Shown here in pieces: positions 444 to 63,432 of a DNA stretch of 64,000 bases. Position numbers and translations under genes: made by a program. Origin of the DNA: Diphasiastrum complanatum. Lineage: Eukaryota > Streptophyta > Lycopodiopsida > Lycopodiales > Lycopodiaceae. The first letter of the stretch is position 1. Every line of letters begins with the position of its first letter. Where the stretch lies: NCBI GenBank assembly GCA_029204225.1, contig CM055103.1, forward strand, positions 52,605,145-52,669,144, read 5' to 3'. The notes under the pieces are model-generated. The model was not told the DNA's origin and ran no database searches. It saw nothing but the letters and a program-made list of their open reading frames with translations.

Positions 444-716
444 ATGGAGGGAGTTCTACTCAATATTCCTGGAATTGGCACTTTCAACATAGAATGGCAT
501 TTAGCAAGAGATCCAAAGACATTAAACTTAGAATTTGATTCGAACATGAACACAGATCATGCTACACACAGTAACATAGACCAAAAAACACTCTACACAC
601 CAAGCTCATATAGCAACTATATTTCTCAAAATGAAAATAAACTATACATACAGTTCTTCACTCAAGCAACCCATGCATGGTTTAGGTTGCCGTTGACGGG
701 ACGCGTGTCCCGTTGA
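444..716 (+). other. Conserved 90-codon ORF, unidentified
   Basis: The ORF starts MEGVLLNIPG and contains GIGTFNIEWHLARDPKTLN. It is preserved at 63160-63432 with one or two replacements. An upstream segment around 371-416 (after a TTATAG acceptor-like site) reads GDERAMTFSHGYLIERH before a stop, so the ORF may be the tail of a larger spliced gene. The family is not recognised. The composition looks coding at first (IEWHLA) and low-complexity later (Asn/Ser/Thr-rich). It could be a transposon-encoded fragment. Confidence 0.35.
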
Positions 717-5949: not shown

Positions 5950-7167
5950 TCAAGTGATTAGAGGGTTGTTGATGGCAAATGACTGGACTAGACGTTTATC
6001 TTTTGCACGTCCCGCTGCCAGCGCCTGCAGATATTCTAAATAGTACAGTTCCCTGTACAAAGGACCTATCTTTGCATCCACCAACTCTGGAGCAGGGATG
6101 ATCTTTTGATCCTTTCCTGGATAATAGAAGGTTACGTAGGATCGTCTGGTGCTGTCGCTGTTCACAATGGCTCTGTGGTTGGCGCTTTTGTATCTCCCAT
6201 TCGTAATGATCTGCAAATCATTAACACAGTGATGTCAACTTGCTTGCCTACACAAGTTTACTGATACAGACAGCAACGTAACGCTGCAGAGGCTTAAGCA
6301 CCTCGTGAATTTTTGAAAAGGCTGACAGACTTCAAATTCTTGGCCTGACGTTAGCGAACACTACAACGAGCTAAACCTTGTGTGATAGTCTAGTTGACAA
6401 TATAAGGAGACAAATTAAGGAAGCACAGTTTCCTTCATTTGTTGTATGTGATCCTAATTATGTCATGAAGACTCAAAATTATTTACCTCGATTTGATCTG
6501 CCAGATTGACGACGAAAGCGTTCGGATGATTTGGAACCAGTTCCCATGTGTCGTTTGCGGCAGCCACCTGCAATCCGTCGCCCTCTTGCATCAGAATGGT
6601 GATGCCTCCAACATCAGAGTGTGCAGGGAGGCCGAGAGTTTTTCCTGGCTCCGGGCAGGGAGGATAGCACTGGAATACTATGCTTTGCTGTGTTACCCCC
6701 ATAGCCTCCTTGATGTACGTGGGTTTGAGCCCAAGATTCTCGGAGATGACAGACAGCAGCCGGTGAGCTAGGTCCATTAGTGCTGCTGTGTACTTCTCCA
6801 CGGTCTCATTAAATTCAGCTGGCTTCTGTGGCCAGTAGTTATAATGCCTTTCAGATAATGGAAGAGTGTGAAGCTCCACGAATTCACGCCAAAACTGCGG
6901 CTCACTGTCAGTAAGGACCATACGGCTGCCATAGCCCTCAGCTGCGAGCACTGGCTTTCCAGCATACACAAGCTTCTCCTCCTCGGGCATATCAAAGAAC
7001 TTGCGACCAACTTCCTTCAGCTTATCCATGAGCTCTACTGGCACGCCGTGATTGATAATTTGGAAGAAGCCATTCTTTTCACAGGCTTCAGCGATCTGGG
7101 CCCTGACGGAAGAAGCTAGTCGTTCATCATCTAGGCCTGACAGATCAATTGGCTTCAAAGTTGCCAT
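5950..7167 (-). CDS. 2-oxoglutarate/Fe(II)-dependent dioxygenase, copy A
   Basis: This is a two-exon gene: exon 1 is 7167-6487 (227 codons), the intron is 6486-6211 with GT-AG ends, and exon 2 is 6210-5950; the product is 313 aa. The N-terminal DIOX_N region (EACEKNGFFQIINHGVP, residues 28-43) is followed by the jelly-roll core. Fe(II) ligands are H183 and D185 (PAHSDVGG) and H239 (SANHRAIVN). The 2OG-binding R-x-S is R249/S251. The family (DOXC; flavonoid, gibberellin and DMR6-like enzymes) hydroxylates or desaturates small molecules in the cytosol. The protein starts directly at the IDLSGL strand, without the 30-50 residues usual before it, and no in-frame upstream ATG is seen. The substrate cannot be called. 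It looks intact and is about 97% identical to copy B. Confidence 0.9.
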
Positions 7168-8599
7168 GCGTAATCAGTCTGTAGATGATCTAAAAATATT
7201 TATGCCGGTTTAAGATATAATATATTGGATGTACAGGCACTGTAGCGTTGTGGGGGTGTGTGAGTGTAGAAGCTGGGCTGTGTGTCTTCCCTGAAAAACT
7301 ACTCCTAGTGCATATAGTTGATCACGAGTGATGAGTGATAAGGACTAAACGGAATTTGGTGGTGTTGGGCATGCACAGAGGGAAGTACATACACTTGCTA
7401 TATATAAGAATCCTTATATTATAATAACAAGATTCCAAAGTCTTTCACTGGGGAGATAAGGCACATTCTTTCTATGTGCCGTTACCATGACGGAGAGAGA
7501 CCAGCTGGAAAGCTGAGAGCGATCAGCTTACCCAAGCGAATCTAAGAGATATGCTCTTTTTTGGACCGATATCATAATCTTCTTAAATTCTTGTTTTTGA
7601 TCAAAATCTATGATCCATTTATGGCGATTAAGACAGGGAAGGTACTGATACACTATTGCTTTGTAAAGTGAACTGCCAAGTCAATGTACCAGTGGAGACC
7701 CAACTCCCAAAAGATAATCCTGGTAATTCTTTTTGCAATCTGTATCTTTGTGATGACGTTCTTTAGTCTCTTGAGACACTTCCATGTTTGTTCTCATGGA
7801 AAGTCATATGTTGATTCTATCAGCTAATGTTCTAAACATTTGATACCTTTTTCATCTAGAACATTCCAAAATAACTTTATGTCCCGAAAACCATAAAAAT
7901 ATTCATATATTCATGCAAGCCAAATGAGGGCTTTGCTGAGCTCATGTGGATATAGAGGTTGCATGGTGTGGTATATTCAAAGACAACTTCTTTTGGAACG
8001 TCCTCAAATCTTCTATGCACATGTAAACAATTCCTACCATTCAACCACGTGGACCAATCAAATTTTAATGTTCATGGAACTTTTTCATGTAGAAAGTTTA
8101 GGCATAGATACATATCCACAAGACTAGTTGTTGGACCCTTTCATTGCCTCCCTAATCGTGTGGATCTAGAGGGCAAAGAAGGGGTTTTATGGATCTAAAT
8201 CTGGGTGAGTGTCGCGATGTAGTAACGGGCTTTGATCCAATGGGGAGAAAGTAAACAAGGTAGTGGGAGTGAGAATCTAGGCAAACTAAGGTTGTCAAAC
8301 TTAGTGTTGAATCTAAAGTGGAACGAGCTTAGATTTGGGATTCATCTCTTGCCTCTTCTATTTTTGTGTTTTTTCCTTGTTTTGCATGCTTTCTTTCCTT
8401 GGTTTTGGTCTTTCTGGGTTATCTAGGCATCTTTGGCTCTAGATCTTTTCCTCAATAGAATTATCTTTTCAAGGGAGGTGAACCATGTATTGAAATCTAG
8501 CTACGGATCTTAATGATTGCTCCAAAGTGTGGACTTAACACTTATTTTGGTTGTGTGCAAATTTTGTAAAATACTTTATTAGAAACTAGTTGAATGAGT
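7168..8599. other. Dioxygenase upstream region, no further gene
   Basis: This is the 5' flank of the dioxygenase, conserved in duplicons B (to 25785) and C. It includes a TATATATAA-like stretch near 7398-7405. Small ORFs at 7924-8198 are not conserved in frame with the homologous part of duplicon C, so they are not called as genes. Confidence 0.5.
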
Positions 8600-13919: not shown

Positions 13920-14703
13920 GCTTATCATTATGTACATCGTCAACACCATGGAGAAGATCATCATCATCAAAATCAATTATATCCGAAAATTCATTAAGCT
14001 CTTTGTTCAAAATGTAAAGAGTCTTAGATTCAGTGAAGTAAAAAAGATCCGATATATCCAATATTGTAAAAAAGGAATTATTATCTATATTATAAGTAGG
14101 CAAATTGATCAAAGATTTATCAGAAGGAGAAAGGGTAGTGGGTGTTCTAGGGCCTATAAAAGTAGCCCTATTTTGAGTAAAATCAAAATCAAAACAATTA
14201 TCTAAATTTACACTCGTATCAATAAAAAAAGTATATATATCTACAGTCTTTCACTTTTCAGACTTTGTACCACTAGAAGAAGCTGCTTCAGAAGTGGAGA
14301 GCACAACCTCTGAATCGTCAAAAATGTTTAACAAAAGGAAAAAAACAAAAGCAGACTGAAAATCAACAAATCTACATTTTTTATTATCAATTGGGCACTC
14401 ATCTACAGACTTGAAATCATTATGTAACTTGGTAAACATTCTGTCAAGCTTAGCTTTATTGATATGCTTGTCGAGTGCCACTAGGTCTTGATAATGAATC
14501 ATGTCCTTATTATGAGATCTGAATAGCAGAGTACTGAGTAGGGACTTAAATTTGAGATATATCTCAGAAAATGCCTCCACACCAGGGCCCTCAGTTATAG
14601 AAGGTAGAAGAAAAGGAGAAAAAAGAGATTTGAAATAGTCCAACCTATCAGTAGTACCAAATTCATTAAAAAAAAAAAGCAAACTGGATTCAAAATTAGA
14701 CAT
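13920..14703 (-). pseudogene. ORFX: unknown partner gene of H3-Ulp1
   Basis: The gene starts at the ATG at 14703 (MSNFESSLLFFFNEFGTT) and reads 150 codons to a TGA at 14253-14251. It continues in the same frame for another 110 codons (TVDIYTFFIDTSVNLDN ... ELNEFSDIIDFDDDD) until cut at 13920 by the 4-kb block. The protein is Phe/Leu-rich N-terminally and Asp-rich C-terminally; no family is recognised. The first 35 residues align with a second ORF at 62353 (F-D/E-S-x-L ... YF/Y-K-x-x-F). It is transcribed divergently from the H3-Ulp1 fusion. The longer ORF from 15087 is rejected because its first 128 codons are the promoter/leader. Confidence 0.6.
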
Positions 14704-15581: not shown

Positions 15582-17666
15582 ATGACCACGACCAAATCCA
15601 TCGCCCGTGCCATCACCATTGTACAACCATCCCATTCCCGTGTTCCCCCTGGTACTGGCCGTAGGCATGGCAGGAAGGAGGTCTGGCTGAGAGAGATCAG
15701 AAAACTCCAGAGATCAACTGAATTGTTGATCCCTAGAGCTCCATTCGGCCGATCTGTTCGGAATGTCACTCTGTCACTTGGGCTAAATGTTTGTTTTGCC
15801 GTGACAGCCATGCAGGTCTTACAGGGTGCTGCAGAAGATTTTTTGTCCCAGTTTTTGGAGGATACTTGTCTTTTGACAGTGCATGGTAAGTGTGTCACCA
15901 TCATGCCAAAGGATTTCGTCATTCTCAAAAGGCTTCGGGACAGATATTCCGGTCTGTAGGTTGATAATGCCAGCACCTCCAGAGACCTGCCTTTGGATAG
16001 AACCAACGTGCCTACTACCTCTAGGAGGAAGAGAAAGCAGCCTGTCCCCAAGAAGGCTGTATCTCGAAGGCCAGCTACTTCCCTTCCTCCTAGACGTATC
16101 TCAGCCAAAAGACCCCGTGTCTTCTTGAGCTCTGAGTCAGATGTTGGAGAATCTGACTCAGATCGAGAATTCTCATCCCTTCCTTCTCTTGTTAATCGTC
16201 TAGCTCCTCAACAGGTTTCATCACCAAAAGTGTTGATTACCCAAGAGGAGCTAGACAAAATAATAGAGAAATCTGTAAATATTGTTTCCGCTTCTGTTTC
16301 TGCTCCTATACATAATCCTTTTGTGAGAATTCCATACGATGCAGCCCAGGTTTTTTTTTATTCTGACCATTATAATCAATACGAGGCCTACCTAGCTAAC
16401 AAAATTGATCTTCTCGGCAACTTTTTTGATTTTTTTCTTCCAGATACATGTAGAAGCTTTAGATTAGGTCCCAAATTTTGTGCCGTGCTAAAAGATAAAA
16501 CCTCATAAATTTCAGATGCAATAATAGAGGCCGTTGTTTCTTTTTTGCTAAATAGTATTAGTTTCGATTCCCATGGTACAGTTTTTGTAGTTAGTCCATT
16601 TTTCATGGGAGCGGTAAAGACGAAAGAAGCCGGTTTTGAGAAGGCTATCTATTTCATCGAGTGTAGTCCTATGTGCGAAATTCTATTTGATTCCATATGA
16701 AAATAAGTAAGGATTGCTCTTTTGTTTTTGTTGCTTTAATCTGGATTGTTGCATGCTTCATTGCTTTAATAAGAACGGAATTTTTTCATAAATATGAATT
16801 TATCGATATTTGTATTTTGGTTCTTGCAGTCGGCATTGGAACCTGAACATTCTTTTTTTAAAGATAAATAAGAAGGGAGTATCAAATTTTCTATGTGTAA
16901 AATGAAGCTCAACTACAAATACACATAGAGAATTTGATTCTCTACTTCATGATGTTGTTCGGGAAATACCGACAATGGCAACTTGAATTGGAGAGCTAAC
17001 CATTAAATCTCTCAAGGTATATTCAATTTATCTCTGATATGCATGTATTCCTTTTTTAATTCAAATGTATCATTCGTAGCATAAATAAAATTTCTATCAT
17101 TATATTACTAATTGTTGTTCTATATATGCAGCGTGTACAACAACAAGACCCTTTTAGTTGTGCATGGTTCGTCTTGTACAATAGAAGCTATTTTTTGAAT
17201 GGTGTAATTTATAAATGGATGTAGATATTGAAAAGGTGATATTCTACTCATTCGTAGTTCATTTCATTCTGATTCATATTTTATTACTATCATTGTTTGT
17301 AATTTGTTGATTCTGGTGTTTTGTGATGACAGTTCACTCTTGAGCCGTATACTCCTGATGATGTATATAGATTTCGGCAAGAGTTGATCAGAACCTATGC
17401 CCAGTACGGTATAAGCATTGCACCTGCAATCGAGGGCCCTCAAAAGGAAGTTGCTCCTGTCTTAACAGCCTTTCATGTTGTTCAGTGCTATGGTGGAATC
17501 CGGAAGAATCCATTCTTTGCTTGAGAAAGAGGGTATTGATATCACCTCTAATCTTCCACCTAAACTGGATGGTTTTAAAATGAATCATAGAAGAAAATAC
17601 AAGAAGCCAAAAGTGATCTCGTGGAGCGGTTCTTGTATTGCAGAAGACCAATATCCAAATGAATGA
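15582..17666 (+). pseudogene. Histone H3-Ulp1 protease fusion, copy 1
   Basis: Exon 1 (15582-16706) starts MTTTKSIARA. Residues 34-120 are an H3 fold without gaps against canonical H3: LREIRKLQRSTELLI, FLEDTCLLTVHGK, VTIMPKD. After a TAG at 15957 the frame continues through a basic linker (RRKRKQ) and an acidic Ser stretch into a Ulp1 domain ending FVVSPFFMG...YFIECSP. Exon 2 (16830-17016) has the catalytic His (HW, 16834), exon 3 (17132-17235) has QQQDPFSCAW with Cys at 17159, and exon 4 (17333 onward) has RFRQELI; a likely C-terminus follows in a shifted frame to 17666. Lesions: TAG 15957, TAA 16506 (Tyr in copy 2), a 1-base insertion near 16671, TGA in exon 2, TAG in exon 3. The first stop leaves a free 125-residue H3-like ORF. 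All introns are GT-AG. Confidence 0.85.
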
Positions 17667-17708
17667 CGTCCATGATGCCGACAAGGGCTCTCCACTATAT
17701 CAGAATTT

Positions 17709-19680: not shown

Positions 19681-19903
19681 TTAATAAATACCCCCACGTA
19701 GTTTTTATTTTTTCTCGCAAATTTTCAGTTTTTACATTCGAATATCGATCTTCAAGTGCATCCAATAGCCTCCTAGTACCCGCCAACGCCCCCGCACTTG
19801 AGACCGATACCGCGATATCTCCGATATTGCTTTTGAGCACGGAACTTCAACTCCTTTTTTTTATGTTAATAATCTTGCCCTCCAAACCGATACTCTCAGC
19901 ATG

Positions 19904-20474
19904 GTATTAGTATGGATTCGGAGGGACTCGTTTTTGTTGTGAGTCCATTTTTCATGGGTGTTGTGAAGGCAAAAGAGGCCAATTATGAAAAGGCTGTATA
20001 TTTCATCGATTGCAGTCCTGTGACCAAATTCTACTTGATTCCATACGAGAATAAGTCAGTTTTGCTTAATGCTATTGATTCCTTTTATTTTGATTACTAT
20101 GCTCATGTCAAAATAGATTATAATTTTCATTTTGCTTGTTGCAGTCTGCATTGGAGCCTGAATATTCTTTCAATAAAAATGAAAAAGGAGGGAATATCAA
20201 ATTTTCTATGTGTGAAAATAAACTCAACTGAAAATACACATAGAGAATTTGATTCTCTACTTCATGATGTCGTGTGTGGAATACCAACAACGGTGACTTC
20301 AATTGGAGAGATAACAACTAAATCTCTCAAGGTATATACAATTTATCTCTGATATGCATTTTTTTATTTTTTAAATCTATTTACATAGCATGAATAAATT
20401 ATAGGTCATAATTTTTATAATTTTTGTTGAATATCTGTAGTGTGAACAACAAAAGGATGCTTTTAGTTGTGCTT
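19904..20474 (+). pseudogene. H3-Ulp1 family copy 3, histone part deleted
   Basis: After a promoter and leader like those of copy 1, the sequence joins directly to the middle of the protease: GLVFVVSPFFMGVVKAKEA ... YFIDCSPVTKFYLIPYEN (exon end 20054). Exon 2 (20145-20331) has HWSLNILSIK (His at 20149) and KINST; exon 3 (20441 onward) has EQQKDAFSC (Cys at 20468). A TAA follows at 20474, where duplicon B begins, so the last exon is missing. The H3 domain, linker and first part of the protease are absent. Splice sites are intact and the remaining exons are open. Confidence 0.75.
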
Positions 20475-23400: not shown

Positions 23401-25785
23401 ATTTTATTATTCTCTGATTCAGTGTAATATGATATTTGTAATTCCAATAGCCGATACGAGAGAGGCAGACAGATCTGGGATACACGTTGTGATAACATTG
23501 TTTGCTCCTTATAAATAAACTAGGAATCTGTAAAAAGCATACACAATGATCATAAACTGAGGTAATGTGGCAAACTTCACATAGCCATCCTTATTCGAAG
23601 CTAAATACCATATATATGCTTACCTGAAGACTTATTTAGCGGTGCAATACTTGTGGTGGCTAGGTGGAATGTAACTCCGAGCAACCCGTTTCATGGGAAT
23701 TTGTTTAACTCCTAACCCAGTGTTTACCCCTTCATTGAGTCAGCATAGCCCTTTGATCATGGCCAAACTTGAAGTCAAGTGATTAGAGGGTTGTTGATGG
23801 CAAATGACTGCACTAGACGTTTATCTTTTGCACGTCCCGCTGCCAACGCCTGCAGATACTCTAAATAGTATAGTTCCCGGTACAAAGGACCTATCTTTGC
23901 ATCCACCAACTCTGGAGCAGGGATGATCTTTTGATCCTTTGCAGGATAATAGAAGGTTACGTAGGATCGTCTTGTGCTGTCGCTGTTCACAATGGCTCTG
24001 TGGTTGGCGCTTTTGTATCTCCCATTCGTAATGATCTGCAAATCATTAACACAGTGATGTCAACTTGCTTGTCTACACAAGTTAACTGATACAGACAGCA
24101 ACGTAACGCTGCAGAGGCTTGAGCAACTCGTGAATTCTTGAAAAGGCTGACAAGCTTTAAATTCTTGGCTTGACGTTAGCGAACACTACAACGAGCTAAA
24201 CCTTGTGCCATAGTCTAGTTGAGCATAGAAGGAGACAAATCAAGGAAGCACAGTTTCGTTCATTGGTTGTATGTGATCCAAATTATGTCATGAAGACTCA
24301 AAACTATTTACCTCGATTTGATCTGCCAGATTGACGACGAAAGCGTTCGGATGATTTGGAACCAGTTCCCATGTATCGTTTCCGGCAGCCACCTGCAATC
24401 CGTCGCCCTCTTGCATCAGAATGGTGATGCCTCCAATGTCAGAGTGTGCAGGCAGGCCAAGAGTTTTTCCTGGCTCCGGGCAGGGAGGATAGCACTGGAA
24501 TACTATGCTCTGCTGTGTTTCCCCCATAGCCTCCTTGATGTACGTGGGTTTGAGCCCAAGATTCTCGGAGATGACAGACAGCAGCCGGTGAGCTAGGTCC
24601 ATTAGTGCTGCTGTGTACTTCTCCACGGTCTCATTAAATTCAGCTGGCTTCTGTGGCCAGTAGTTATAATGCCTTTCAGATAATGGAAGAGTGTGAAGCT
24701 CCAAGAATTCACGCCAAAACTGCGGCTCACTGTCAGTAAGGACCATACGGCTGCCATAGCCCTCAGCTGCGAGCACTGGCTTTCCAGCATACACAAGCTT
24801 CTCGTCCTTGGGCAGATCAAAGAACTTGCGACCCACTTCCTTCAGCTTATCCATGAGCTCTACTGGCACGCCGTGATTGATAATTTGGAAGAAGCCATTC
24901 TTTTCACAGGCTTCAGCGATCTGAGCCCTGACGGAAGAAGCCAGTCGTTCATCATTTAGGCCTGACAGATCAATTGGCTTCAAAGTTGCCATGCGTAATC
25001 ACTCTGTAGATGATCTAGAAATATTTATGCCGGTTTAAGATAAAAAGTATTGGATGTACAGGCACTGTAACGTTGTGGGGGTGTGTGAGTGTATAAGCTG
25101 GGTTGTGTATCTTCCCTGAAAAACTACTCTTACTACTGCATAGATTTGATCACGAGTGATGAGCGATAAGGACTAAACGGAATTCGGTGGTGTTGGGCAT
25201 GCACAGGTAGGTACATACGCTGCTATATATCAGTATCCTTATATTATAGCAAGAAGATTCCACACTCTTTCACTGTGGGAGATAAGGCACATTCTTTCTA
25301 TGTGCGGTTGCCATGACGGAGAGCGACCAGCTGAAAAGCTGAGAGCAATCAGCTTACCCAAGCAAATCTAAGAGATATGCTCTTTTTTGGACCGATATCA
25401 GAATCTTCTTAAATTCTTGTTTTTGATCAAAATCTATGATCCATCTATGATCCAAAAGGTAACAATTGAGCAATTATTTATATTAAAAACTGCACAGGAT
25501 TAAGACAGGGAGGGTAATGATACACTAGTGCTTTGTAAAGTGTACTGCCAAGTCAATGTACGAGTGGAGACCCAACACCGAAAAGATAATCCTGGTAATT
25601 CTTTTTGCAATCTGTATCTTTGTGATGACGTTCTTTAGTCTCTTGAGACACTTCCATGTTTGTTCTCATGTAAAGTCATATGTTGATTCTATTTTCCAAT
25701 ATATCCAAAATTTGTAAGCTAATATTCTAAACATTTGATACCTTTCTCATCTAGAACATTCCAAAATAACTTTATATTCCAATAA
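20475..25785. repeat. Duplicon B carrying dioxygenase gene
   Basis: From AAATGGCATGTGAATTAC at 20475 to 25785 the sequence matches duplicon C (61897 down to about 56580) in inverted orientation with high identity, including about 3 kb downstream of the dioxygenase that duplicon A lacks. 20475-23770 holds no supported gene. At 25785 it is joined to the truncated LTR that opens 4-kb block II, where A still has about 2 kb more. Confidence 0.9.
23775..24992 (-). CDS. 2-oxoglutarate/Fe(II)-dependent dioxygenase, copy B
   Basis: Same structure as copy A: exon 1 is 24992-24312 (681 bases), a GT-AG intron, and exon 2 is 24035-23775; product 313 aa. All ligands are kept (H183, D185 in PAHSDIGG; H239; R249/S251). 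It differs from copy A at scattered residues such as N/D at 13, LPKDE for MPEEE around 60, V/I at 186 and E for V at 158. It is intact and could be expressed. Like copy A it lacks the usual N-terminal extension. It is closer to copy C than to A. Confidence 0.9.
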
Positions 25786-37789: not shown

Positions 37790-38990
37790 GAGAAGATGAC
37801 AAACAAGTTGCTGACAGTCAGATGAAGAGAAGGAAATCTCTGAAAGCATATTAAATGCTTCAGAAAATGAAGATTAGCTCTGGCATAGAAAAATGTACCA
37901 TCTGAACATGCAGAGCCTGTATAACATGAGCATAAAGGACATTGTCATAGGTCTCAAGATTTCAAGGCCAGAGTTTGAGTTCTGCGAAGCTTGTCAGAAA
38001 GGCAAGCAACATCGAAATCCATTCACACACGAGGGAAGAAGAGCCAAAGAAGTTCTTGAGCTCGTCCACTCTGATGTGTGTGGACCGATGAAAACATATT
38101 CGCTCTTATGAAAACAGATTCGCTCTCAGATTCGAGATATTTTCTAATGTTCATAGATGATTACAACCGAATGACCACGATCTACTACTTGAAGAAGAAA
38201 TCCGAAGTATTTGATTCTTTCAAGAAGTTTGTGGCATTCGCAGAGCGACACACCTCAAAAAAGATACAGATTCTTAGATCTGACAATGGAGGTGAATACA
38301 AAAGCACAAAATTCTCAAAATTCTGCAAAGAAAAGGGGATCGAACACCAGTTCACTCCTGCATACACACCAGAATACAACGGTGTGGCAGAAAGAAAAAA
38401 TAGAACGCTAGTCGAAGGAGCTAGATGCATGATGGCACAGGCTCAATTGCCAAGTCAATTCTGGGCCGAGGCAATAGCTGCAGTTGTACACCTGCAAAAT
38501 AGATCTAACACCATATGAAATGTGGACAGACAGAAAGCTTGATCTGTCATATGTATGAGTGTTTGGATGTGCAATATACAAGCACATTCCAAAGGAAAAG
38601 AGAAGCAAGCTTGATGACAAATCCGAATAAACAATCATGGTCGGCTACTCGAATGTAACACATGTGTACAGACTCTACGATCCAACCACGAAGAAGGTTG
38701 TTTCAAGCAGAGATGTGAAGTTCGATGAGTTCACATTTCCTGGACTGAAAGACGAAAGAGGCCATGAGATCTTCACACTGCTGCCCATTCAACAGGGAGA
38801 TCGAGGACATACATCAAATCAGAATGCAGAGCCCTAGACTCCAGAGCAGTAGGAAGTAGATAATTGACCCCACGAACAAGAAATGTTCGAGCAGTGATGA
38901 AACGAACCTCGAAGGTCAACAAGACAAAGAAGACCTCCAGACTGCTATCATTAGAGGAGTTTTGAGCACCAAAAGGGCCTTTTGTCAAGA
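37790..38990 (+). pseudogene. Copia integrase remnant
   Basis: Plus strand: pre-integrase with a zinc-binding pattern (MYHLNMQSL; FEFCEACQKGKQHR), integrase core (FLMFIDDYNRMTT; ILRSDNGGEYKS; EYNGVAERKNRTL), then after stops the integrase end (TIMVGYSNVTHVYRLYDPTT; SSRDVKFDE). D-D-E core residues are visible. Stops near 38110, 38516 and 38628 inactivate it; RT is not seen. Confidence 0.85.
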
Positions 38991-39840: not shown

Positions 39841-41700
39841 TTACATTTCAATCAAAGGTGCCTGAGGCATATCCTCGAGCACTGTAACCTCATCCACGAA
39901 TCCTCTGGCAGGTTCTTTTGAGGCACCTTCATGCTTGTATGGCCTTGCACATGATAGTAAAATTTCCAATATTTCATGCCGATACTGATGAATCGCATTT
40001 GTTGATACCTCAGGACATTGGAATTGCAAAAAAAAATATCGAGTGTATCTATGTATTAGCCAATGTTTTAAAATATATAAATTCACAAGGTTAACAATAT
40101 ATCATCAGGATACTGGAACATTGAAAAAAATACCTCACGGATACTAGCATCTGAAGGTTGCACCATATACCAATCCAAGAACGATTTAACGTTCCAGATT
40201 GAATACCATCCGCAGCTGAAAGCATCGTCTTATTGCGAAGACTGAGAAATCACAGCGAAAAATTGTTAAAGTATAATTCAATATAATTCTAAACTACATG
40301 CCATCATGCAAATAAAATATGTAAAAAGATTCCTTGTACCTTTGCATCAACAACCTCTATGTTGGTATTTACAACCAACCCATCCGGCCTGGGCAATAGC
40401 TCCACCATCCTTTTGTACATGGGTTTAATCATGGAATGGGTGGCATGCAAAGAATTCATTGTCATGCACACAGGTGTGCAGCTTCCGGTCGAATCCACTT
40501 TCATGGATATGACGTGCACACTCCAATGTTTGTTGCCAGAAAGAGACAAGCAATGAATTACTAGAATCTATAAGAGTTTCCAAAAGAAAATCTTGCAGAA
40601 AACAGATATTACAAGAAGAAACTATCTTACTTTGAACAATATGGGATGATGAACATTGATGCCTCTTTGTTGGTGTGCCTGAAGAGCCTTCTAGCTTTCC
40701 TCTCTTTATTCAACAGATGCCCAAAAAATGGAGATACAACAAAAATCTCCTTCATGACTGTATATGTATATTTATGTAGATAGTATGCACAAGCAGATTC
40801 AACTACTGTGTCTGAGATATATGAGGTCTTCTCTTTTAGCTCCCTACAATGCGGGTCTTTGATATGCATTGCAAAATCAATATCGTCTATACAAAACATA
40901 AATTCCCCCCCGAGATCATCTATTTTCTTGGCTATATACAGGTCAAAATCAATGTACCTCTCAGAATCAAAAAATGTGTATTTAGGTTAATTCGGAAGTC
41001 TGATGTGCAACTCTTCATCAGTTGCATCAACATCAGAAACAATCATGTCTACCACTGTATTGAGGTCATCCTCATGTATAGAAGGAGAATCGTGCAGTTG
41101 AAGATCAGGGGTTATGGGAGGACTCTCAACCAGTGGAATTGCGGACGTACTAGCCAGATCTTCTCTAATGGGACGAGGTGAGGGTGAAGAGTTGGGAGAC
41201 CTGGGCTTGGGTTGCGAACGCTTGGGCTGTGCTTGCTTTCTCTTTTTGCGGGGAAGGACAGGCCCCCTTTCAAGAGGAGCTTGCCTTTGTGTGAATCCAG
41301 ACTTAAAAATGCTGTCATAGGTGTTTGGAAGCCTCATGACAAGAAGCATGTCCTTGGGCATCAGTGTCACCCTCTTGCCATGAATGGAGCACAACATCGA
41401 ATCCTCAAACAATTTTGTCTGGAAATCCTCGTATGCAGTATGGAGGGCCTCCAATGCAGTGATATTCCACCTCACTGCATAGGGCAGATGGGTGGTCATG
41501 TCTTGTGTAACCTCTCTCATAGCCCGGTAGAAGGTTGCTTTCGAGATCAGAAGTTTGGTGCTCCTCTTCAAGGCCCTGATGTCCCTCAACCATGGACGGC
41601 TAGGTCTACTGCGTCTTTGCGGACGTACCGGTTTAGATGTTTGGGGATGGGACGGATGAACAAAACAAGTAAGCCTAGTGGTTTGCTTCGTCCGAGCCAT
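39841..41700 (-). pseudogene. Histone H3-Ulp1 protease fusion, copy 2 (best preserved)
   Basis: Exons (minus): 41700-40631, 40532-40340, 40241-40134, 40008-39841; about 510 codons. It starts MARTKQTTR. H3 fold at residues 36-127: LRDIRALKRSTKLLI, REVTQDM, KLFEDSMLCSIHGKRVTLMPKD; loop 1 is 4 residues longer than in canonical H3. Linker 140-235 is basic then Ser/Pro-rich (RKKRKQ; SPNSSPSPRP) and acidic. Protease: FFDSERYIDFDLYIAKKID, IFVVSPFFGHLL, HWSVHVISMK (His 40528), MTMNS (Asn at the usual Asp), DDAFSCGW (Cys 40214), final helix YRHEILEILL. Lesions: TAA 40989-40987 in frame, TAA 40232-40230 (CAA in other copies), exon 2 acceptor AA. Introns match copies 1 and 3. Ulp1 enzymes cleave SUMO; the target here is unknown. 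Confidence 0.9.
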
Positions 41701-41918
41701 TGAGACTGAATATCTATACTACGCGAGGATAGAGACACATCAGAAGAGACACTGAGAACTCTAACTGTGATATCGCTACGACGCGAGAGAGTGGCAGAGT
41801 CAGGCGGGGAGAGGCAGGGTCTCGTGTGATGGCGATATTGGGGAAGTCAAGCTGATATCGCTACGATGCGAGAGAGTGTAAGGAACGGGCATGGGGAGAA
41901 GGTTGCTTGCGTGATGGC
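41701..41918 (-). promoter_or_regulatory. 5' leader of H3-Ulp1 copy 2, cut by copia LTR
   Basis: The minus strand carries two copies, about 105 bases apart, of CTCTCGC-A/G-TCGTAGCGATATCA, and between them CCAATATCGCCATCACACGA. The same words precede the second ORFX start at 62230-62345. The leader is interrupted at 41918 by a copia LTR, so the promoter proper is lost or displaced. Confidence 0.65.
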
Positions 41919-42573
41919 TGTGAAAAATACAGATCCTAAGTGGATCTAAACTCCAAGATCATTGGCTTGAATGCTTGCACTCCAAACTACATAAGCTAGG
42001 AATTGGCAACACATTCTATGCTACCTAGAATGCAAAGAACTTGATCAAAAAGCATTTATCACAAATGGAAACTTCCATAAACATAAAGTGCGGCCCAAAA
42101 TAGCATTATACAGTCCATAATACATCAGCCTACCACTTTTGGAAAGCACCTAAGATCATACACAATAGCTTGAAGACAATACACACAACAATGCTCTCAA
42201 TGGAGGAAGAAACAATGACAATGATCTATTGATCTCAATGAAGCATACAAAAGGTTTCTCCAACCTGTTCTCCACGACTTCCCTACTATTTATGGATGAG
42301 GAAGATGACTCTCTCTCCTCTCTCTAGAAGGTACTTGACCCTAGATATTCCCTATATAGGAAAAATAGCTAAAAATGGCTTATATGACCAAAATACATCA
42401 AAATGGTCTCATTTTGAAGGGTATGAAGTTTGACACTTCATCATACTGAAAAAATACAGTAAATAAAAACATTGTGGCCTGGTTCACACGTGCAAAACTC
42501 CAGAACCAAAACTATTTACAATTTTAGCCAATTTAGGCCTCAAACTAGCTAGGAAATGTTGACAATTTTCACA
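41919..42573 (-). mobile_element. Copia LTR, 655 bp (truncated element)
   Basis: TGTGAAAAAT to ATTTTCACA ends, minus orientation, with the polypurine tract AAGAGGGAG at its 5' side. It is nearly identical to 44877-45531. The polyprotein stop codon lies inside the first five bases of the LTR. Confidence 0.95.
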
Positions 42574-43536
42574 CTCCCTCTTCAACATTGGATGCTAGTT
42601 TCAACATAGTCTTTGAGCACATTCCAAGATTAGATCTATGCATTAAATATAGGTCCTTTCCCAATGGTTTGGTGAAGATATCAGCCACACACTCCTTTGA
42701 AGAGACATGTTGAAGCTCCACCTCTTTGGCAATGACTTGATCTCTCACAAAATGGTGAGCAATCTCAATGTGCTTGCTCCTTGCATGAAAAACAGGATTG
42801 CTTGCCAAGCTTTGGGCTGAAAGGTTATCACAAAGTATGATTGGAGTCTTCTCTGGTTCCAGCAAGTGAAGATCCAATAACATCCTCTTGATCCAAAGAA
42901 TCTCCTTGGTGCATGTTGTTAATGCCTTGTACTCGGCTTCGGTGGAAGATAGAGAGATAGTTGGTTGCTTCTTTGATAGCCATGAGACCACTCCATCTCC
43001 AAGATAGATTGCAAAGGCACTTGTTGACTTCCTATCCATTTGATCACCTGCAAAATCTGAATCTGAAAATCCACAAAGGTTAGGTGTAGTACCTCCATAC
43101 AAGATGCCAAAATCTCTAGATCCCGAGATGTATCTAAGTACTCTCTTTCCTAGCTTCCAATGAGCCTCACTAGGATCTTGCATAAATTGACTTAGTTTAC
43201 CAACCACAAAGCTTAGATCAGGTCTTGTGATGGTTAACCATATAAGAGATCCTATTAGCTTTCTATAGAGAGTAATGTCCTTGAAGGATCTTTCATTACT
43301 TCTTGTAGTTAGCTTTACATTTGATTCCATAGGAGTAGAAACAACTTTACAATCTTCCATATGAAACCTTTTTAGAATAGAGTTAACATACTTTTCTTGA
43401 CATATGAATGTAGATTTAGAAGTTCTAATAATCTCTATTCCTAAGATATAATGAAGTTTACCAAGATCTTGAATTTCAAACTCTCTTTTGAGTGCCATCT
43501 TGATTTCATCTATATCTAGATTGTTACCACCACTGA
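42569..43536 (-). pseudogene. Copia RT end-RNase H, truncated
   Basis: Open for 309 codons: EFEIQDLGKLHYILGIEI, ITRPDLSFVVGKLSQFM, CGFSDSDFAGDQMDRKSTSA, SSTEAEYKALTTC, HHFVRDQVIAKEVE, ADIFTKPLGKDL. It breaks off at 43536 within the RT sequence that follows the YVDD box, where a CACTA fragment begins. This copy is intact where the longer element has a stop. Confidence 0.9.
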
Positions 43537-44876
43537 AGAGGAGGAGAAGAAAAGGGAAGTGTGTTGTGTGTCATCGAACCATCCGATGATGATGCATCAT
43601 GCGCAACGTCATCATTAGCTTGTGAAGGTTTCACATAATCATCCTCTGAAATTGTGACATTGAATCCGTCATCATGATCTTGTTCATGAGGTGCATCAGC
43701 TGGCAGCGCCATGTCCTCCAGGACATCTCTATCTTCAAAAATTCTTTTACTTTGAGGAGCGACTTGAATCACGTACCACCATCTGGGATATGAATGATCG
43801 AGGTGAAGGACCACTTGTAATTTATCGATCTTACCATAAACGTTGACTCGTAGTTAGTATCCATAGCTATGCTACAGTTGCTTGTGTATTACTATACACA
43901 ATATACATTTTTTGTAGTACACTAAAAATCAATTGATTGACAACAAAAGAGCATAGACATCTTGAAGACATTAAACAAATGTACCTGCTCACATTGTTGG
44001 AAAAAACAAATGTGTCACTTTGATCCATCCAAAGCTTGGTGGAGTCAATGGCAAAATAACCACTCTCATCTTTCCTGACAGTTGCATTGGGACCATTGCA
44101 AATAACTTTGAACCATTTGACATCAAATATGAAAAAGCTGAATTGCCTAAATCCAACTTCGAGGATGTCATTGATTGTCCCACAACAATCAAGTTGAGAA
44201 GAGAGTAAATTGGTGTCAATCGTGCTTGCTCAACTCTCTTGGGTAAAATTTGCCATGACTCCACAATTGTACGTGTTTCTATTTTTGTCAATGCGCTCCA
44301 TACGAAAGTGTCATCCATGCGTCCATAGTGCATTGTATTTTTTGTACTGAACGAAATGGAACTAAATGTGTTAGAGATACAACAAACATGTACAAAATTG
44401 CACGTATTAATAAACATGTGAAGGTTGATCATCATAGCTTACATGTAAATTGCACGCCCTTGCATATTTCCGCTCTCTCTCTGTTACTTCCTGGTTGTTT
44501 GCTGAAGCTTCTCTAAATGCATCACATAACTAATCAAGCATCATGTCCTTGGGTAGAAGGGCGAGGTCAAGTGGGTATGGTTGTCTTCTTTGCCCTCTTC
44601 TGAAGTGGCTCGAGCGGTTTGTCTACGAGCCTTGGCATCTTCGTATAGCGAAATCCACTTTTGTATTTCCTCGCTATTAAGAATGCAAAACTTATTTACC
44701 TTCCTTGAAGGACTCACTCATTCTCATGATCACTTCTTTTCCTTGAGGAACCTCCCCAACAACACGCTCATCGTCCTTCTTATCCCAAAGACGAGGAATA
44801 GAAGAATCGCTATGAGCAAGGAAATCTATGATGTAAACCATGGACTCTTGCACTAGCCATCCTTCCACCATGCTAC
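43537..44876 (-). pseudogene. CACTA (En/Spm) TNP2-type transposase remnant
   Basis: Minus-strand fragments in CACTA order: FCILNSEEIQKWISLYEDAKA (44700-44600, the segment between DUF4218 and DUF4216), then after stops STKLWMDQSDTFVFSN (about 44030), then a DUF4216-like WWYVIQVAPQSKRIFEDRD followed by an acidic tail (43814-43540). Frames change between pieces and introns may lie between them. It sits upstream of H3-Ulp1 copy 2 on the same strand, separated only by the truncated copia. Confidence 0.6.
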
Positions 44877-45531: not shown

Positions 45532-48500
45532 CTTCCTCTTCAACATTGGATGCTAGTTTCAACATAGTCTTTGAGCACATTCCAAGATTAGATCTATGCA
45601 TTAAATATAGGTCCTTTCCCAATGGTTTGGTGAAGATATCAGCCACACACTCCTTTGAAGAGACATGTTGAAGCTCCACCTCTTTGGCAATGACTTGATC
45701 TCTCACAAAATGGTGAACAATCTAAATGTGCTTGCTCCTTGCATGAAAAACAGGATTGCTTGCCAAGCTTTGGGCTAAAAGGTTATCACAAAGTATGATT
45801 GGAGTCTTCTCTGGTTCCAGCAAGTGAAGATCCAATAACATCCTCTTGATCCAAAGAATCTCCTTGGTGCATGTTGTTAATGCCTTGTACTCGGCTTCGG
45901 TGGAAGATAGAGAGATAGTTGGTTGCTTCTTTGATAGCCATGAGACCACTCCATCTCCAAGATAGATTGCAAAGGCACTTGTTGACTTCCTATCCATTTG
46001 ATCACCTGCAAAATCTGAATCTGAAAATCCACAAAGGTTAGGTGTAGTACCTCCATACAAGATGCCAAAATCTCTAGATCCCGAGATGTATCTAAGTACT
46101 CTCTTTCCTAGCTTCCAATGAGCCTCACTAGGATCTTGCATAAATTGACTTAGTTTACCAACCACAAAGCTTAGATCAGGTCTTGTGATGGTTAACCATA
46201 TAAGAGATCCTATTAGCTTTCTATAGAGAGTAATGTCCTTGAAGGATCTTTCATTACTTCTTGTAGTTAGCTTTACATTTGATTCCATAGGAGTAGAAAC
46301 AACTTTACAATCTTCCATATGAAACCTTTTTAGAATAGAGTTAACATACTTTTCTTGACATATGAATGTAGATTTAGAAGTTCTAATAATCTCTATTCCT
46401 AAGATATAATGAAGTTTACCAAGATCTTGAATTTCAAACTCTCTTTTGAGTGCCATCTTGATTTCATCTATATCTAGATTGTTACCACCACTTAAGATAA
46501 TGTCATCAACATAGATCAAAAGTAAAGTGATATCATTTTCATTCAATCTAAAGTAGAGAGAATGATCATACTCACTCATAACAAAGTTTTGAGAAAGTAA
46601 GAAGGAATTGAGCTTAGCATACCAACTCCTTGGTGCTTGCTTTAGCCCATACAAACTCTTTTGGAGATAGCACACATGATTAGGCTCATCATGTGAAACA
46701 TAGCCCTCGGGTTGCTCCATGTAAATATCTTCTTCAAGATCACCATTCAAGAAGGCATTAGTAACATCCATTTGCCACATATCCCAATCATAAAGAGTTG
46801 CAAGAGAGATTAGGATTCGAATAGTTACCATCTTTGCCACGGGTGCAAAGGTCTCATCATAGTCAATACCATATTCTTGAGCATACCCCTTTGCCACCAA
46901 CCTTGCCTTGTACTTGTTGATTGATCCATCTTGATTTGTCTTGATCTTGAAGATCCACTTACAACCAATTTCCTTCTTGTCCTTTGGAAGCTTTACCAAC
47001 CTCCATGTGTTGCTTTTGATGAGTGCTTGATGCTCATGATCCATGGCTTGGATCCATTCCTTCTTTTGAATTGCTTCACCTACACAAGTTGGTTCATCAA
47101 AAGAGGTAAGAAAAGCAAGGTTAGAGTTGTCCACCACTTGCTTTCCTTTTTCATCATAGGTTAGCCTTGATGGCTTAGCCCTTTGCCTTTGAGTCTTCCT
47201 TGAAGTTTGCTTTGGAGTGGCATCTCCATCTTCATCCAAGACATCTTGCACATCATGATGATTAGTAGGCACATCAACATCAACATCAACAACATTGGAA
47301 ACATTCTCTTCATGAAAGATGACATCCCTACTTATGACAACTTTCTTTGTAGAAGGAATGTACACTTTGTAAGCCTTGCTTACTTCACTATAGCCAACAA
47401 ACACACCCTTCTTTGATGAAGGATCTTCTTTAGTTCTATCATCAAGTGTGATATTGACAAAACATGTACATCCAAAGATCCTACAATGCTTGACACTCGG
47501 TCTTCTACCATAAAGAACCTCATGAGGAGTTTTACCATCCAAGGAAGCACTTGTCCATCTATTACATAGATAGTTAGCACATGCTAAAGCTTCCCCCCAA
47601 AAAGACTTAGCAAGATTAGCATGTAGTCTCATTGCCTTGGCACATTCACAAAGGGTTCTATTCTTCCTCTCGGCCACTCCATTCTGTTGTGGAGTCCTAG
47701 GACTAGACATCTCCCTCTTAATCCCATGTGCTATACAAAAGTCTTTGAACCTATTTGAGGTGTATTCCCCTCCATTATCAGATCTTAAGCATTTGATCTT
47801 TGTATTGAATTGGTTTTCCATTTCATTCTTGAACTTGACAAATGCAGCAAACACTTCATCCTTACTTTTAAGAAGATAGATCCAAGTATACCTACTAAAG
47901 TCATCAATGAAAGTTGCATACATCTTTGCCCCAGTTGTACTAGAAGAATGAATATCAGAATGCACAAGTTGAAAAGCTTCTTTAGATCTAGAAGTAGATC
48001 TAGAATAAGCAAGTCTATGAGATTTGGACAAGGCACAATGTTCACAAACACTATTGTTTGCAACAAGACTTTTAGGGAGACCAAGAACAAGCTCTTTCTT
48101 TGCCATTACCTCCAAAGATTTGAAGTTGGGATGGCCCAACCTCTTGTGCCAAACTTCTTGGTTTGTCAATTGCTCCCTAGCCATACATCCTTCATGATTA
48201 GAGATCACACATGCATCAAGCTTGAAAAGTTTACCATGCCTCCTACCTTGAGCAATCAAGGATCCACATTTACTTATCAAACATGCATCTCCAATGAACT
48301 CCACATCAAGTCCTTTGTCAATCATTTGACTTACACTAAGCAAATTCTTAGTGATTGAAGGAATGTACAAGACATTTTCAAGATTTGCTTTCCTATTTGT
48401 TGAAAGGAAAATAGGAATAGTGCCTATGCCTTTGATGTCACATTGACCATCATTTGCAGTGTAGATGATGTTACCTTCTCCCTCATAAGACAATAAGGAT

Positions 48501-49137
48501 GTAAAGTATTCCTTATGTCTTGTCATGTGAGATGAGGCTCCACTATCAATCCACCAAGGATCATTATCATCTATGTTGGCTAACAAACTTGAAGTCATAA
48601 CAAGTGATTCACATGTGTTATGTTCTTCCTCATCTATTGTAAGATTTCCTTGCCTCTCTCCTTGCTCTCTTTTCTTCTTATAACATTCATTTGCAAAATG
48701 ACCTTTTATCCCACAATAAAAGCCTTTGAACTTTGACTTATTGTTCTTAGTAGAAGAGGAAGAGGAAGAGTGAACATCATGATCAAAGCTACCACCTTTG
48801 GACCATTTCCCTTTGCCTTTACCTTTGCCCTTGAATTTGCCTTTTGTGAAGAAAGCCTCTTCACCTCCACCTTGCAAGGATGCACCATCAAGCTTTGATT
48901 GCAACCTATGTTCTTCAGCCAATAAGATTTCTTGCAAGTCAACCACACTTGGCAAGACTCTTTGAATGGCAAAACTTTGCACAAGGTTAGCATGTTCATT
49001 TAGCAAACCATTCAACATAACTTGGACTATTTCACCATCTTTTATGTTCTCATCAATGCATGCTAAATCATCACTTAGGGACTTAACTCTCAAGATAAAT
49101 GCATGAGCACTTTCACCCTCTCTTTGCCTACTAGAAA
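45527..49137 (-). CDS. Copia Gag-Pol polyprotein, 5'-truncated, one stop
   Basis: An open frame runs from the truncation at 49137 through gag (UBN2-type, QREGESAHAFILRVKS), a zinc knuckle missing its first Cys (KGFYCGIKGHFANEC), protease (WWIDSGASSHMT), pre-integrase (WHKRLGHPNF; CEHCALSKSH), integrase (FIDDFSRYTW; CLRSDNGGEYTS; PQQNGVAERKNR), RT (GCKWIFKIKTN; MDVTNAFLNGDLEED; YVDDIILSGG) and RNase H (SDSDFAGDQMD; STEAEYKAL). A TAG at 45724-45722 replaces the GAG present at the same place in the 42.6-kb copy; the frame then continues to the stop inside the LTR (45529-45527). Only the gag N-terminus and 5' LTR are absent. It is recent in age by its intact frame. Confidence 0.95.
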
Positions 49138-49149
49138 AATATCGATCGG

Positions 49150-49445
49150 AGCACTTCAGTCAGATCTCAACTGGAGGTTTTCACATCAAATCTCAACCAG
49201 AGGCCACCACTCAAATCTCAACCGGAGGTTTTCGCGTCAAATCTCAATAGGAGGTCACGACTAAAATCTCAAACGGAGGTTTTCACGTCAAATATCAACC
49301 GGAGGTTTTCACGTCAAATCAACCAAAGGCCACGACTCAAATCTCAACCGGAGGCCACGACTCAAATCTCAACCGGAGGCCACCACTCAAATCTCAACCG
49401 GAGGCTTTGACTCGAATCTCAACAGGAGGTTTCAATTCAAAACTC
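49150..49445. repeat. Minisatellite, about 24-27-bp units
   Basis: About eleven units of ATCTCAACCGGAGG followed by TTTTCACGTCAA or CCACGACTCAA alternate along the array. Two unit types (CACGTCAA and CACGACTCAA) are interspersed. It begins a few bases past the truncation of the copia element. Confidence 0.9.
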
Positions 49446-55786: not shown

Positions 55787-57313
55787 GACATTCATTCAAC
55801 TAGTTTCAAAAAAGTAATCCACAAAATCTACACACAACCAAAATACGTGTTAAGTCCACACTTTGGAGCGATCATTAAGATATGTACGTAGATTTCAAAA
55901 CGTAGTTCACCTCCCTTGAGAAGATCAACCTCTTGAGGAGAAGATCTAGAGCCAAAGATGCCTAGATAACCAAGAAAGAATAAAACCAAGAAAAGAAAGC
56001 ATGCAAAACCAGAAAAAGAACACAAAAAGAGAAGAGGCAAGAGATGAACTTCATCCCAAATCTAGGCTCATTATACTTTAGATCCAACACAAAGCTTGAC
56101 AACCTTAGTTAGCATAGATTCTCACTCCCACGGCCTTGTCAACTCTCTCCCCATTGGAACAAAGCCCGTTAACACGCGACACACTCACTTGGATTTAGAT
56201 CCATAAGCCCGCTTTTTGGCCCTCTAGATCCACACGATTAGGGAGGCACGGAAACGGTCCCCCAACAACTAGTCTTGTGGATATGCATCTATGCCTAAAC
56301 TTTCTACATGAGAAAGTTCCATGAACATTAAAATTTGATTGGTCTACATGGTTAAATGGTAGGAATTGTTTAAATGGGCATAGAAGATTTGAGCAAGGGC
56401 GTTCCAAAAGAAGTTGTCTTTGAATATACCACACCATGCAACGTCTATATCCACGTGAGCTCAGCAAAGTCATCATTCTGCTTGCATGAATATATGAGTG
56501 CATAAATATTTTTATGGTTTTCCAAGCCTACACAAAGTTATTTTGGAATGTTCTAGATGTAAAAGGTATCAAATGTTTAGAACATCAGATTACAAATCTT
56601 GGATATATTGGAAAATAGAATCAACATATGACTTTACATGAGAACAAACATGGAAGTGTCTCAAGAGACTAAAGAACGTCATCACAAAGATACAGATTGC
56701 AAAAAGAATTACCAGGATTATCTTTTGGGAATTGGGTCTCCACTGGTACATTGACTTGGCAGTACACTCTACAAAGCAATAGTGTGTCATTACCTTCCCT
56801 GTCTTAATCCTATGCAGTTTTTAGTATAAATAAGTGCTCAATTGTTAAATTTTTGATCATAGATGGATCACAAATTTTGATCAAAAACAAGAATTTAAGA
56901 AGATTCTGATATCGGTCCAAAAAAGAGCATATCTCTTAGATTTGCTTGGGTAAGCTGATTGCTCTCAGCTTTCCAGCTGGTCGCTCTCCGTCATGGCAAC
57001 CGCACATAGAAAGAATGTGCCTTATCTCCCACAGTGAAAGAGTGTGGAATCTTCTTGCTATAATATAAGGATTCTGATATATAGCAGCGTATGTACCTCC
57101 CTGTGCATGCCCAACACCACCGAATTCCGTTTAGTCCTTATCACTCATCGGTCGTGAACAAATATATGCACTAGTAAGAGTAGTTTTTCAGGAAGACACA
57201 CAGCCCAGCTTCTACACTCACACACCCCCACAACGTTACAGTGCCTGTACATCCAATACTTTTTATCTTAAACCGGCATAAATATTTCTAGATCATCTAC
57301 AGACTGATTACGC

Positions 57314-58525
57314 ATGGCAACTTTGAAGCCAATTGATCTGTCAGGCCTAAATGATGAACGACTGGCTTCTTCCGTCAGGGCTCAGATCGCTGAAGCCTGT
57401 GAAAAGAATGGCTTCTTCCAAATTATCAATCACGGCGTGCCAGTAGAGCTCATGGATAAGCTGAAGGAAGTGGCTCGCAAGTTCTTTGATCTGCCCAAGG
57501 ACGAGAAGCTTGTGTATGCTGGAAAGCCAGTGCTCGCAGCTGAGGGCTATGGCAGCCGTATGGTCCTTACTGGCAGTGAGCCGCAGTTTTGGCGTGAATT
57601 CGTGGAGCTTCACACTCTTCCATTATCTGAAAGGCATTATAACTACTGGCCACAGAAGCCAGCTGAATTTAATGAGACCGTGGAGAAGTACACAGCAGCA
57701 CTAATGGACCTAGCTCACCGGCTGCTGTCTGTCATCTCCGAGAATCTTGGGCTCAAACCCACGTACATCAAGGAGGCTATGGGGGAAACACAGCAGAGCA
57801 TAGTATTCCAGTGCTATCCTCCCTGCCCGGAGCCAGGAAAAACTCTTGGCCTGCCTGCACACTCTGACATTGGAGGCATCACCATTCTGATGCAAGAGGG
57901 CGACGGATTGTAGGTGGCTGCCGCAAACGATACATGGGAACTGGTTCCAAATCATCCGAACGCTTTCGTCGTCAATCTGGCAGATCAAATCGAGGTAAAT
58001 AGTTTTGAGTCTTCATGACATAATTTGGATCACATACAACCAATGAACGAAACTGTGCTTCCTTGATTTGTCTCCTTCTATGCTCAACTAGACTATGGCA
58101 CAAGGTTTAGCTCGTTGTAGTGTTCGCTAACGTCAAGCCAAGAATTTAAAGCTTGTCAGCCTTTTCAAGAATTCACGAGTTGCTCAAGCCTCTGCAGCGT
58201 TACGTTGCTGTCTGTATCAGTTAACTTGTGTAGACAAGCAAGTTGACATCACTGTGTTAATGATTTGCAGATCATTACGAATGGGAGATACAAAAGCGCC
58301 AACCACAGAGCCATTGTGAACAGCGACAGCACAAGACGATCCTACGTAACCTTCTATTATCCTGCAAAGGATCAAAAGATCATCCCTGCTCCAGAGTTGG
58401 TGGATGCAAAGATAGGTCCTTTGTACAGGGAACTATACTATTTAGAGTATCTGCAGGCGTTGGCAGCGGGACGTGCAAAAGATAAACGTCTAGTGAGTCA
58501 TTTGCCATCAACAACCCTCTAATCA
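57314..58525 (+). pseudogene. 2-oxoglutarate/Fe(II) dioxygenase, copy C, broken
   Basis: Exon 1 is 57314-57994 and exon 2 starts at 58271 after a GT-AG intron, as in copies A and B. Codon 200 is TAG (57911-57913) where A and B have CAG. One base is missing near 58494 (GTGAGTCA for GTGCAGTCA), which shifts the last 17 codons. The Fe and 2OG ligands H183, D185, H239 and R249/S251 are still encoded. The stop truncates the protein after H183/D185 but before H239, so the product cannot bind iron properly. Confidence 0.92.
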
Positions 58526-62817: not shown

Positions 62818-63159
62818 TTGTCATCACAAAGCAGGTGGATGAGTAAATAACTAACATTGTAGATTGTTAATCTTACCACATGGTGAAACCATCTTCATGC
62901 AAATGGTGACTTTCAAATCAAAGGTCATCATCAAGCATGGAAGAACATGGATGTAGTGGCGAATTGGTGGAATGTCCTTCAAAGGTGTTGGCAAATGATT
63001 TAATCATTTTAATATGGATTTCATTTGGTAAATATTTTATGTGGTAATATTATGACGCTAAATCACGTGTTTGTTTTCTCTTATAGGTGATGAAAGAGCC
63101 ATGACATTCTCTCATGGATATTTAATAGAACGTCATATTCTGCCACCATAAAAAATCAC

Positions 63160-63432
63160 ATGGAGGGAGTTCTACTCAATATTCCTGGAATTGGCACTTT
63201 CAACATAGAATGGCATTTAGCAAGAAATCCAAAGACATTAAACTTAGAATTTGATTCGAACATGAACACAGATCATGCTACACACAGTAACATAGACCAA
63301 AAAACACTCTACACACCAAGCTCATATAGCAACTATATTTCTCAAAATGAAAATAAACTATACATACAGTTCTTCACTCAAGCAACCCATGCATGGTTTA
63401 GGTTGCCGTTGATGGGACGCGTGTCCCGTTGA
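63160..63432 (+). other. Conserved 90-codon ORF, second copy
   Basis: Same frame as 444-716 (MEGVLLNIPG, IEWHLARNPKT), two replacements. Unidentified. Confidence 0.35.

Follow-up and report, generated by a model that had tools for sequence, protein, structure and literature searches.

The question raised by this locus of Diphasiastrum complanatum is whether a histone H3 and a Ulp1-type cysteine protease can be parts of one protein, and, if so, what kind of gene encodes it. The window, by which we mean the whole 64,000-nucleotide stretch of contig CM055103.1 that was analysed, contains a gene that begins as an H3 and continues into a protease-like domain. The sequence-only reading put this gene at 39841..41700, and both its coordinates and its strand, minus, hold. 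Four exons are found on that strand, at 41700-40631, 40532-40340, 40241-40134 and 40023-39841. Exon 1 encodes the MARTKQTTR start, the H3 (with its core at about 41643-41329), a basic Ser/Pro linker and the N-terminal half of the C48-like domain. Exon 2 contains NKHWSVHVI, with the triad His, and CMTMNS, with an Asn at the position of the Ulp1 Asp, exon 3 contributes DDAFSCGWYSIWN with the triad Cys, and exon 4 encodes the C-terminal helix YRHEILEILLS, followed by the stop codon. The gene is decayed. The two in-frame stops counted earlier are present, one in exon 1 (40987-40989) and one in exon 3, but the count of a single bad splice acceptor was too low, as the acceptors of exons 2 and 4 both lack AG. 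Pfam recognised a Histone domain in the H3 part of this copy (E 1.3e-23, 84 bits against a cut-off of 26.4) and returned no match for its protease exons when they were submitted one by one.

A search of the genome (1.74 Gb in 5176 contigs) with PF00125 gave at least 153 matches, with 150 of 6325 candidates scored. Thirteen canonical H3 genes, at 163.7-165 bits, are among the matches listed, leaving by subtraction at least 140 non-canonical ones, all at 109.5 bits or less; host H3 exons may account for a few of these, partial matches that score about 83-84 bits. Twenty of the non-canonical loci, selected for frames without stops, were fetched, and their alignment separates three families: A (13 of 20), B (L013, L015, L024, L025, L027 and L028) and C, whose sole fetched member, L014, is related to a second relic in the window (W2, described below). 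Copies of the window gene's own type (W1) were sought with a 119-residue piece of the protease. Of 3999 candidates, the 150 highest-ranking were scored, and they are 84-100% identical to the piece. Some pairs among them resemble one stretch present on two contigs, and 9 of these 150 sit in stop-free frames of 350 residues or more.

The answer to the first part of the question comes from L025, a member of family B. Its gene has four exons, GT-AG introns and no premature stop, and its predicted product is one protein of 470 residues, in which a basic linker connects an H3 variant to a Ulp1-like cysteine protease. Both Pfam models score above their cut-offs in this one protein: Histone (PF00125) at residues 25-123 (E 8.7e-27, 94.2 bits, cut-off 26.4) and Peptidase_C48 (PF02902) at residues 316-443 (E 5.4e-10, 39.9 bits, cut-off 20.7). 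An intact H3-C48 frame therefore exists, and the earlier proposal that the two parts belong to a single gene is borne out by this relative. L025 is the only intact copy among the six of family B. None was found among 20 W1-type copies, window copy included, which were picked by likeness to the window copy and not by intactness. One more W1 copy, L050, has an exon 1 that reads without a stop through the H3, the linker and the first C48 half, and the gene is broken shortly past HWSVHV; the open frame of L014 extends only into the first part of the C48 half.

The joint architecture is shared by copies that have diverged far from each other. A W1-type protein (copy L035) is 31% identical to that of L025, yet all three introns lie at the same position and in the same phase (2, 0, 0) in the two genes, and the fusion families as a group retain the architecture at 31-38% identity. 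Because the same architecture recurs in diverged families and the intron positions are conserved between W1 and B, the families read, a chance origin is excluded on these sequence comparisons. Within family B, dN/dS between L025 and L024 is 0.18 for the H3 core, 0.19 for the H3 tail, 0.54 for the linker and 0.35 for C48; the corresponding values between L025 and L013 are 0.12, 0.26, 0.41 and 0.25, with the caveat that L024 and L013 are broken copies, which adds noise to these low values. By this estimate, the H3-C48 gene was under purifying selection in the past between two B subfamilies. The values for L025 against L015, L027 and L028, which range by region from 0.31 to 2.4, are read as decay after insertion, the C48 value for L028 coming from a poor alignment that spans a deletion. 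In the comparisons of L025 with L024 and L013, dS is 0.45-0.54 in the H3 core and 0.20-0.23 in C48, and the introns differ by 7.3-7.6%. As the silent divergence of the introns and of C48 is far below that of the H3 core, the B subfamilies may have exchanged their H3 parts.

The second part of the question concerns the carrier. L025 lies between inverted ends 9305 bp apart, CATTAGAGGAATTCTCAATATCAA... and ...TTGATATTGCAAACTCCTCTAATG, which share a 43 bp inverted match at 84%; the inverted repeats begin CATTAGAGGA, and the ends start with CATTAG. At this single copy with both ends read, no target-site duplication was seen (...GAATG / AGTTC...). Mapping by tblastn across the 20 fetched loci, with counts limited by the stretch fetched, identified four element genes, namely a transposase-like gene, X, H3(-C48) and Y. 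They are ordered in family B as transposase (+), X (-), H3-C48 (+) and Y (-), with C48 found in 6/6 copies, the transposase in 4/6, X in 4/6 and Y in 5/6. Family A has the same order, except that its H3 gene and the gene occupying the position of X are inverted, and contains Y in 10/13 copies, the X-place gene in 7/13 and the transposase in 7/13 (on the other strand in L022). The transposase, H3 and Y versions of the two families match each other, and tblastn gave no cross-match between the X-place gene of family A and X of family B at each other's loci. The gene that resides in a four-gene DNA transposon in the relative L025 is thus present at the window locus in a decayed form.

The predicted fold of a transposase homologue, P0004, matches RAG1/Transib; that the fold lists contain no other superfamilies does not count against these. 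A sequence profile of the transposase found no match in the PDB at E 10. The transposase alignment was compared with the pattern of the CMCT group (CACTA, Mirage, Chapaev, Transib), D...D...C(2)C...H(3-4)H...E, of which the D, D, C, C, H and H residues were counted: D375 is kept in 22/24 rows, D473 in 24/25, C493 in 22/25, C496 in 23/25, H533 in 24/25 and H538 in 25/25. The transposase pieces of L013 matched no Pfam family, and among six transposase homologues the sole Pfam match over the cut-off was DUF7794, in a chimeric Adiantum annotation. Together with the modelled fold, this points to a transposase lineage of RAG1/Transib fold that lacks a Pfam model. In the genome, tblastn located the lineage at L013, L014, L016-L018, L021-L026 and L028, with pieces in the window at 330-575 (+) and 63046-63252 (+), and its relatives P0001-P0039 come from many other assemblies and one fern annotation. 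The idea that the Ulp1-like gene is carried by a transposable element is therefore supported by the inverted ends, the transposase fold and the gene set, but the same features (inverted ends, four genes and a RAG1/Transib-fold transposase) do not identify it as a MULE or a typical CACTA, the carriers of ULP-like genes that the sequence-only reading named.

Downstream of the window gene, a terminal-repeat sequence, CATTAGAGGAGTTTTGAGCACCAA, is present at 38949..38972 on the plus strand. Like repeats end L013, L025, L027 and L028, and this one is probably the end of the W1 element in the window, although most other W1 copies align with the window only from 39583 on, which weakens 38949 as the end. 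Upstream of the start codon, two 66-base direct repeats that are 73% alike occupy 41768..41918. The match of the other copies to the window ceases at 41918, where copia-type sequence starts just upstream of the gene. This copia-type sequence (45722-49159 and 42569-43570, both minus strand) comprises an open frame of 1145 residues and a partial second copy. The other H3-C48 relic in the window, W2, at 15582..17467 on the plus strand, is diverged and belongs to a different family, with the H3 at 15684-15956 and C48 pieces, including FSCAWF, within 16323-17467, and it is interrupted by stops. It is flanked by relics of gene X (14272..14700, minus strand) and gene Y (17581..17691, minus strand), and an additional partial C48 copy is found at 19897..20253 on the plus strand. 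Elsewhere in the window are three near-identical reading frames (6463-7173, minus; 24288-24998, minus; 57308-57913, plus), which we take to resemble 2-oxoglutarate-dependent dioxygenase genes and whose near-identity suggests a recent local duplication.

We then examined the histone half at positions that we take to be the DNA-contact and H3-H3 residues of the nucleosome core. Arg69, Arg83, His113, Arg116, Thr118 and Arg129 are kept in all five element-type rows compared (W1, C, B, A and P0053, a protein of another assembly), Arg63 is replaced by Pro or Ser in all five, and Arg72, Cys110, Lys115, Asp123 and Leu126 vary; these statements exclude a composite row of the same alignment. The N-terminus is MARTKQTAR in 8/20 W1 copies and in L050; 3/20 have no start at that site and the others differ, with MARTKQTTR in the window copy. 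L014 starts with MARTESTAR and L025 with MDKRKQTRR. Family A genes start with MSEEMARTKQTAR in L009 and L010 and with MAWTKQTAR in L021, and in all three the start is followed by a long insert rich in Ser/Arg, Gln and poly-Pro, the H3 core and a stop, with no protease. Several W1 copies, as well as L009 and L010, retain ARTKQTAR though the remaining tail is replaced, which suggests from the sequences that the element H3s may also engage readers of the H3 N-terminus.

Some traits of the element H3s recall CENH3, namely LLIPxAxF in most of them and a long loop 1 with RW in W1. The fusion-type H3s are 41-45% identical to host H3 and 34-48% identical to the CENH3/CENP-A rows, which are overlapping ranges; the CENH3/CENP-A rows, like the Arabidopsis CENH3 query, are sequences that we supplied ourselves. 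In a tree built from 28 sequences over 94 alignment columns, P0053 clusters weakly (38/82) with the fusion-type rows, separately from plant CENH3 (85/86). An origin of the element H3 from CENH3 is not supported, as the identities overlap and the tree does not group the two. Among the best 150 of 5403 candidates for the Arabidopsis query, no host CENH3 exon set was recognised, whereas canonical and element-type H3s were.

The protease half of L025, searched against the PDB, finds Ulp1-type proteases first (6dg4, E 4.3e-4; 1euv, E 4.9e-4), followed by six weaker rows at 0.08-0.48, four of which are Ulp or SENP proteases. The HW and PQQ....C motifs of L025 align with those of Ulp1-type proteases. 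The full set of catalytic His-Asp-Cys and oxyanion Gln is incomplete, with His, Gln and Cys present and Asp replaced by Asn, as seen in VKMNS (family B), MTMNS (W1) and VKINS (the W2-type piece at 19.9 kb); the principal W2 exon is disrupted at this position. Because of this Asn, we call the domain C48-like, and SUMO cleavage is not assured. In papain-like proteases, Asn acts as the third catalytic residue. Intact L025 retains His, Gln and Cys. L015 and L039 lack the triad Cys, and L034, L035, L041 and L042 have a change at the Gly that follows it. No C48 was found by tblastn at E 1e-4 in the 13 fetched copies of family A, and the protease is therefore not obligatory.

To look for relatives beyond this genome, a single spliced fusion protein was used as the query, and none of 4426 candidates was a homologue at E 0.001, with a length filter that excludes ordinary H3. 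A profile of three fusion proteins retrieved 37 proteins, of which almost all are H3s of ordinary or variant type. The only one that looked element-like, P0053, has an element-type H3 with an extension of about 240 residues, the end of which (FVLDPLV...IIILPYVER) looks by eye like the protease half; its profile match is limited to the H3 part, and Pfam found no protease in it. A viral origin was considered and rejected after none of 168 pattern stretches in IMG/VR was confirmed, in a collection from which records near the source genome are possibly absent.

Any account of the fusion has to start from what is established, which is the architecture, the high copy number, one intact copy and past selection. 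In the leading explanation, for which we see the case as evenly balanced, the H3 carries the Ulp1-like protease into chromatin to counter silencing. The fusion's H3 fold would pair with host H4, this pairing would bring the protease into chromatin, the chromatin-borne protease would strip SUMO or a related modifier off silencing proteins, and the deSUMOylated silencers would allow the element to be expressed or excised. We infer the SUMO-directed role from the parts of the protein and from the roles proposed for Ulp1 and TET proteins elsewhere. Among the main reasons to doubt it are the Asn substitution and the sister family A, which has the H3 only. The complete chain, in which a transposon of RAG1/Transib fold would encode an H3 variant with a built-in SUMO protease that is deposited in nucleosomes and desumoylates silencing factors, and would thus possess a selfish histone, we regard as doubtful.

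A possible alternative, though on the unlikely side, is that the fusion protein works as a binder or decoy attached to chromatin, which would hold SUMO or SUMOylated silencers, or soak up H3 chaperones or tail readers. Such a protein would not need the catalytic Asp, and could tolerate the changes at or next to the triad Cys in the six copies named above; the persistence of family A with H3 only, and the ARTKQTAR start kept in 8/20 W1 copies, L009 and L010 despite the new tail, fit it as well. However, intact L025 retains the other three active-site residues, C48 was under purifying selection between subfamilies, and Asn has its precedent in papain-like proteases. It is improbable that host H3 and ULP genes were simply picked up and copied as passengers without function for the element. 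A fungal hAT element transduplicated H3 in this way, and RIP inactivated hundreds of the copies (PMC6710886), and the majority of the copies examined here are broken, but a passenger would hardly account for an architecture that persists across families at 31-38% identity or for the selection between subfamilies. Less probable still is a direct service to the element, in which the protease would cut element proteins or free itself from the H3 part; genes X and Y are there as candidate substrates, whereas cleavage sites find no support, the fusion to H3 is left unexplained and family A does without the protease. Least of all do we credit a gene-model artefact in which neighbouring H3 and protease genes are read as one, for despite the introns in the 3' part, a single uninterrupted frame joins the H3 to the first C48 half in both L025 and L050, and at C1393, C2:51.67M and C5:46.72M the matches to the CENH3 and C48 queries adjoin in frames of equal length.

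Returning to the leading explanation of a protease carried into chromatin by its H3, the presence of an intact copy in the same genome means that delivery of a chromatin-modifying enzyme into host chromatin may have been within reach of a selfish element. The system lets one ask whether a selfish element can place an enzyme in chromatin by encoding a histone, and how important SUMO is for transposon silencing in the host.

Several known systems share single features with this element, and no H3-Ulp1 fusion was found among the best-ranked literature matches, which covered few subscription papers and no preprints. The Ulp1-like genes Kaonashi/KIU ride on Arabidopsis VANDAL elements, which are MULEs without TIRs, and have been discussed for escape from silencing (PMC13317346). 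They resemble the H3-C48 element as a plant DNA transposon with a Ulp1-type domain, but the ends of L025 are inverted and its transposase has the RAG1/Transib fold, and the text of that review makes no mention of 'histone'. hAT elements of Dothideomycetes have multiplied histone H3 to hundreds of copies, of which all but the original were inactivated by RIP (PMC6710886). There too a DNA transposon captured and multiplied an H3, but the element is a hAT with H3 only, and a protease is unmentioned in the abstract. TET/JBP genes are carried by fungal DNA transposons, some of them of the CMCT group (EnSpm, ESTA), with a proposed role in removing silencing marks (PMC12730594). They share with our element the motifs C(2)C and H(3-4)H, and differ in being fungal and in encoding a DNA-modifying enzyme rather than a histone-protease; the RAG1-likeness of ESTA comes from HHpred, and that of the H3-C48 element from a predicted fold. 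Compared with Transib and RAG1 themselves, the H3-C48 transposase lacks a PDB profile match, the ends start with CATTAG and the one copy read has no five-base duplication. Histones of NCLDV have domains fused mutually or to other sequence, although 'protease' is absent from the source text (PMC9145170) and no IMG/VR relative was confirmed. Anti-silencing genes were already known in transposons, and Ulp1-like domains and H3 had each been reported in separate ones. Here, H3 and a Ulp1-like domain form one protein, which is retained over diverged families and has an intact copy.
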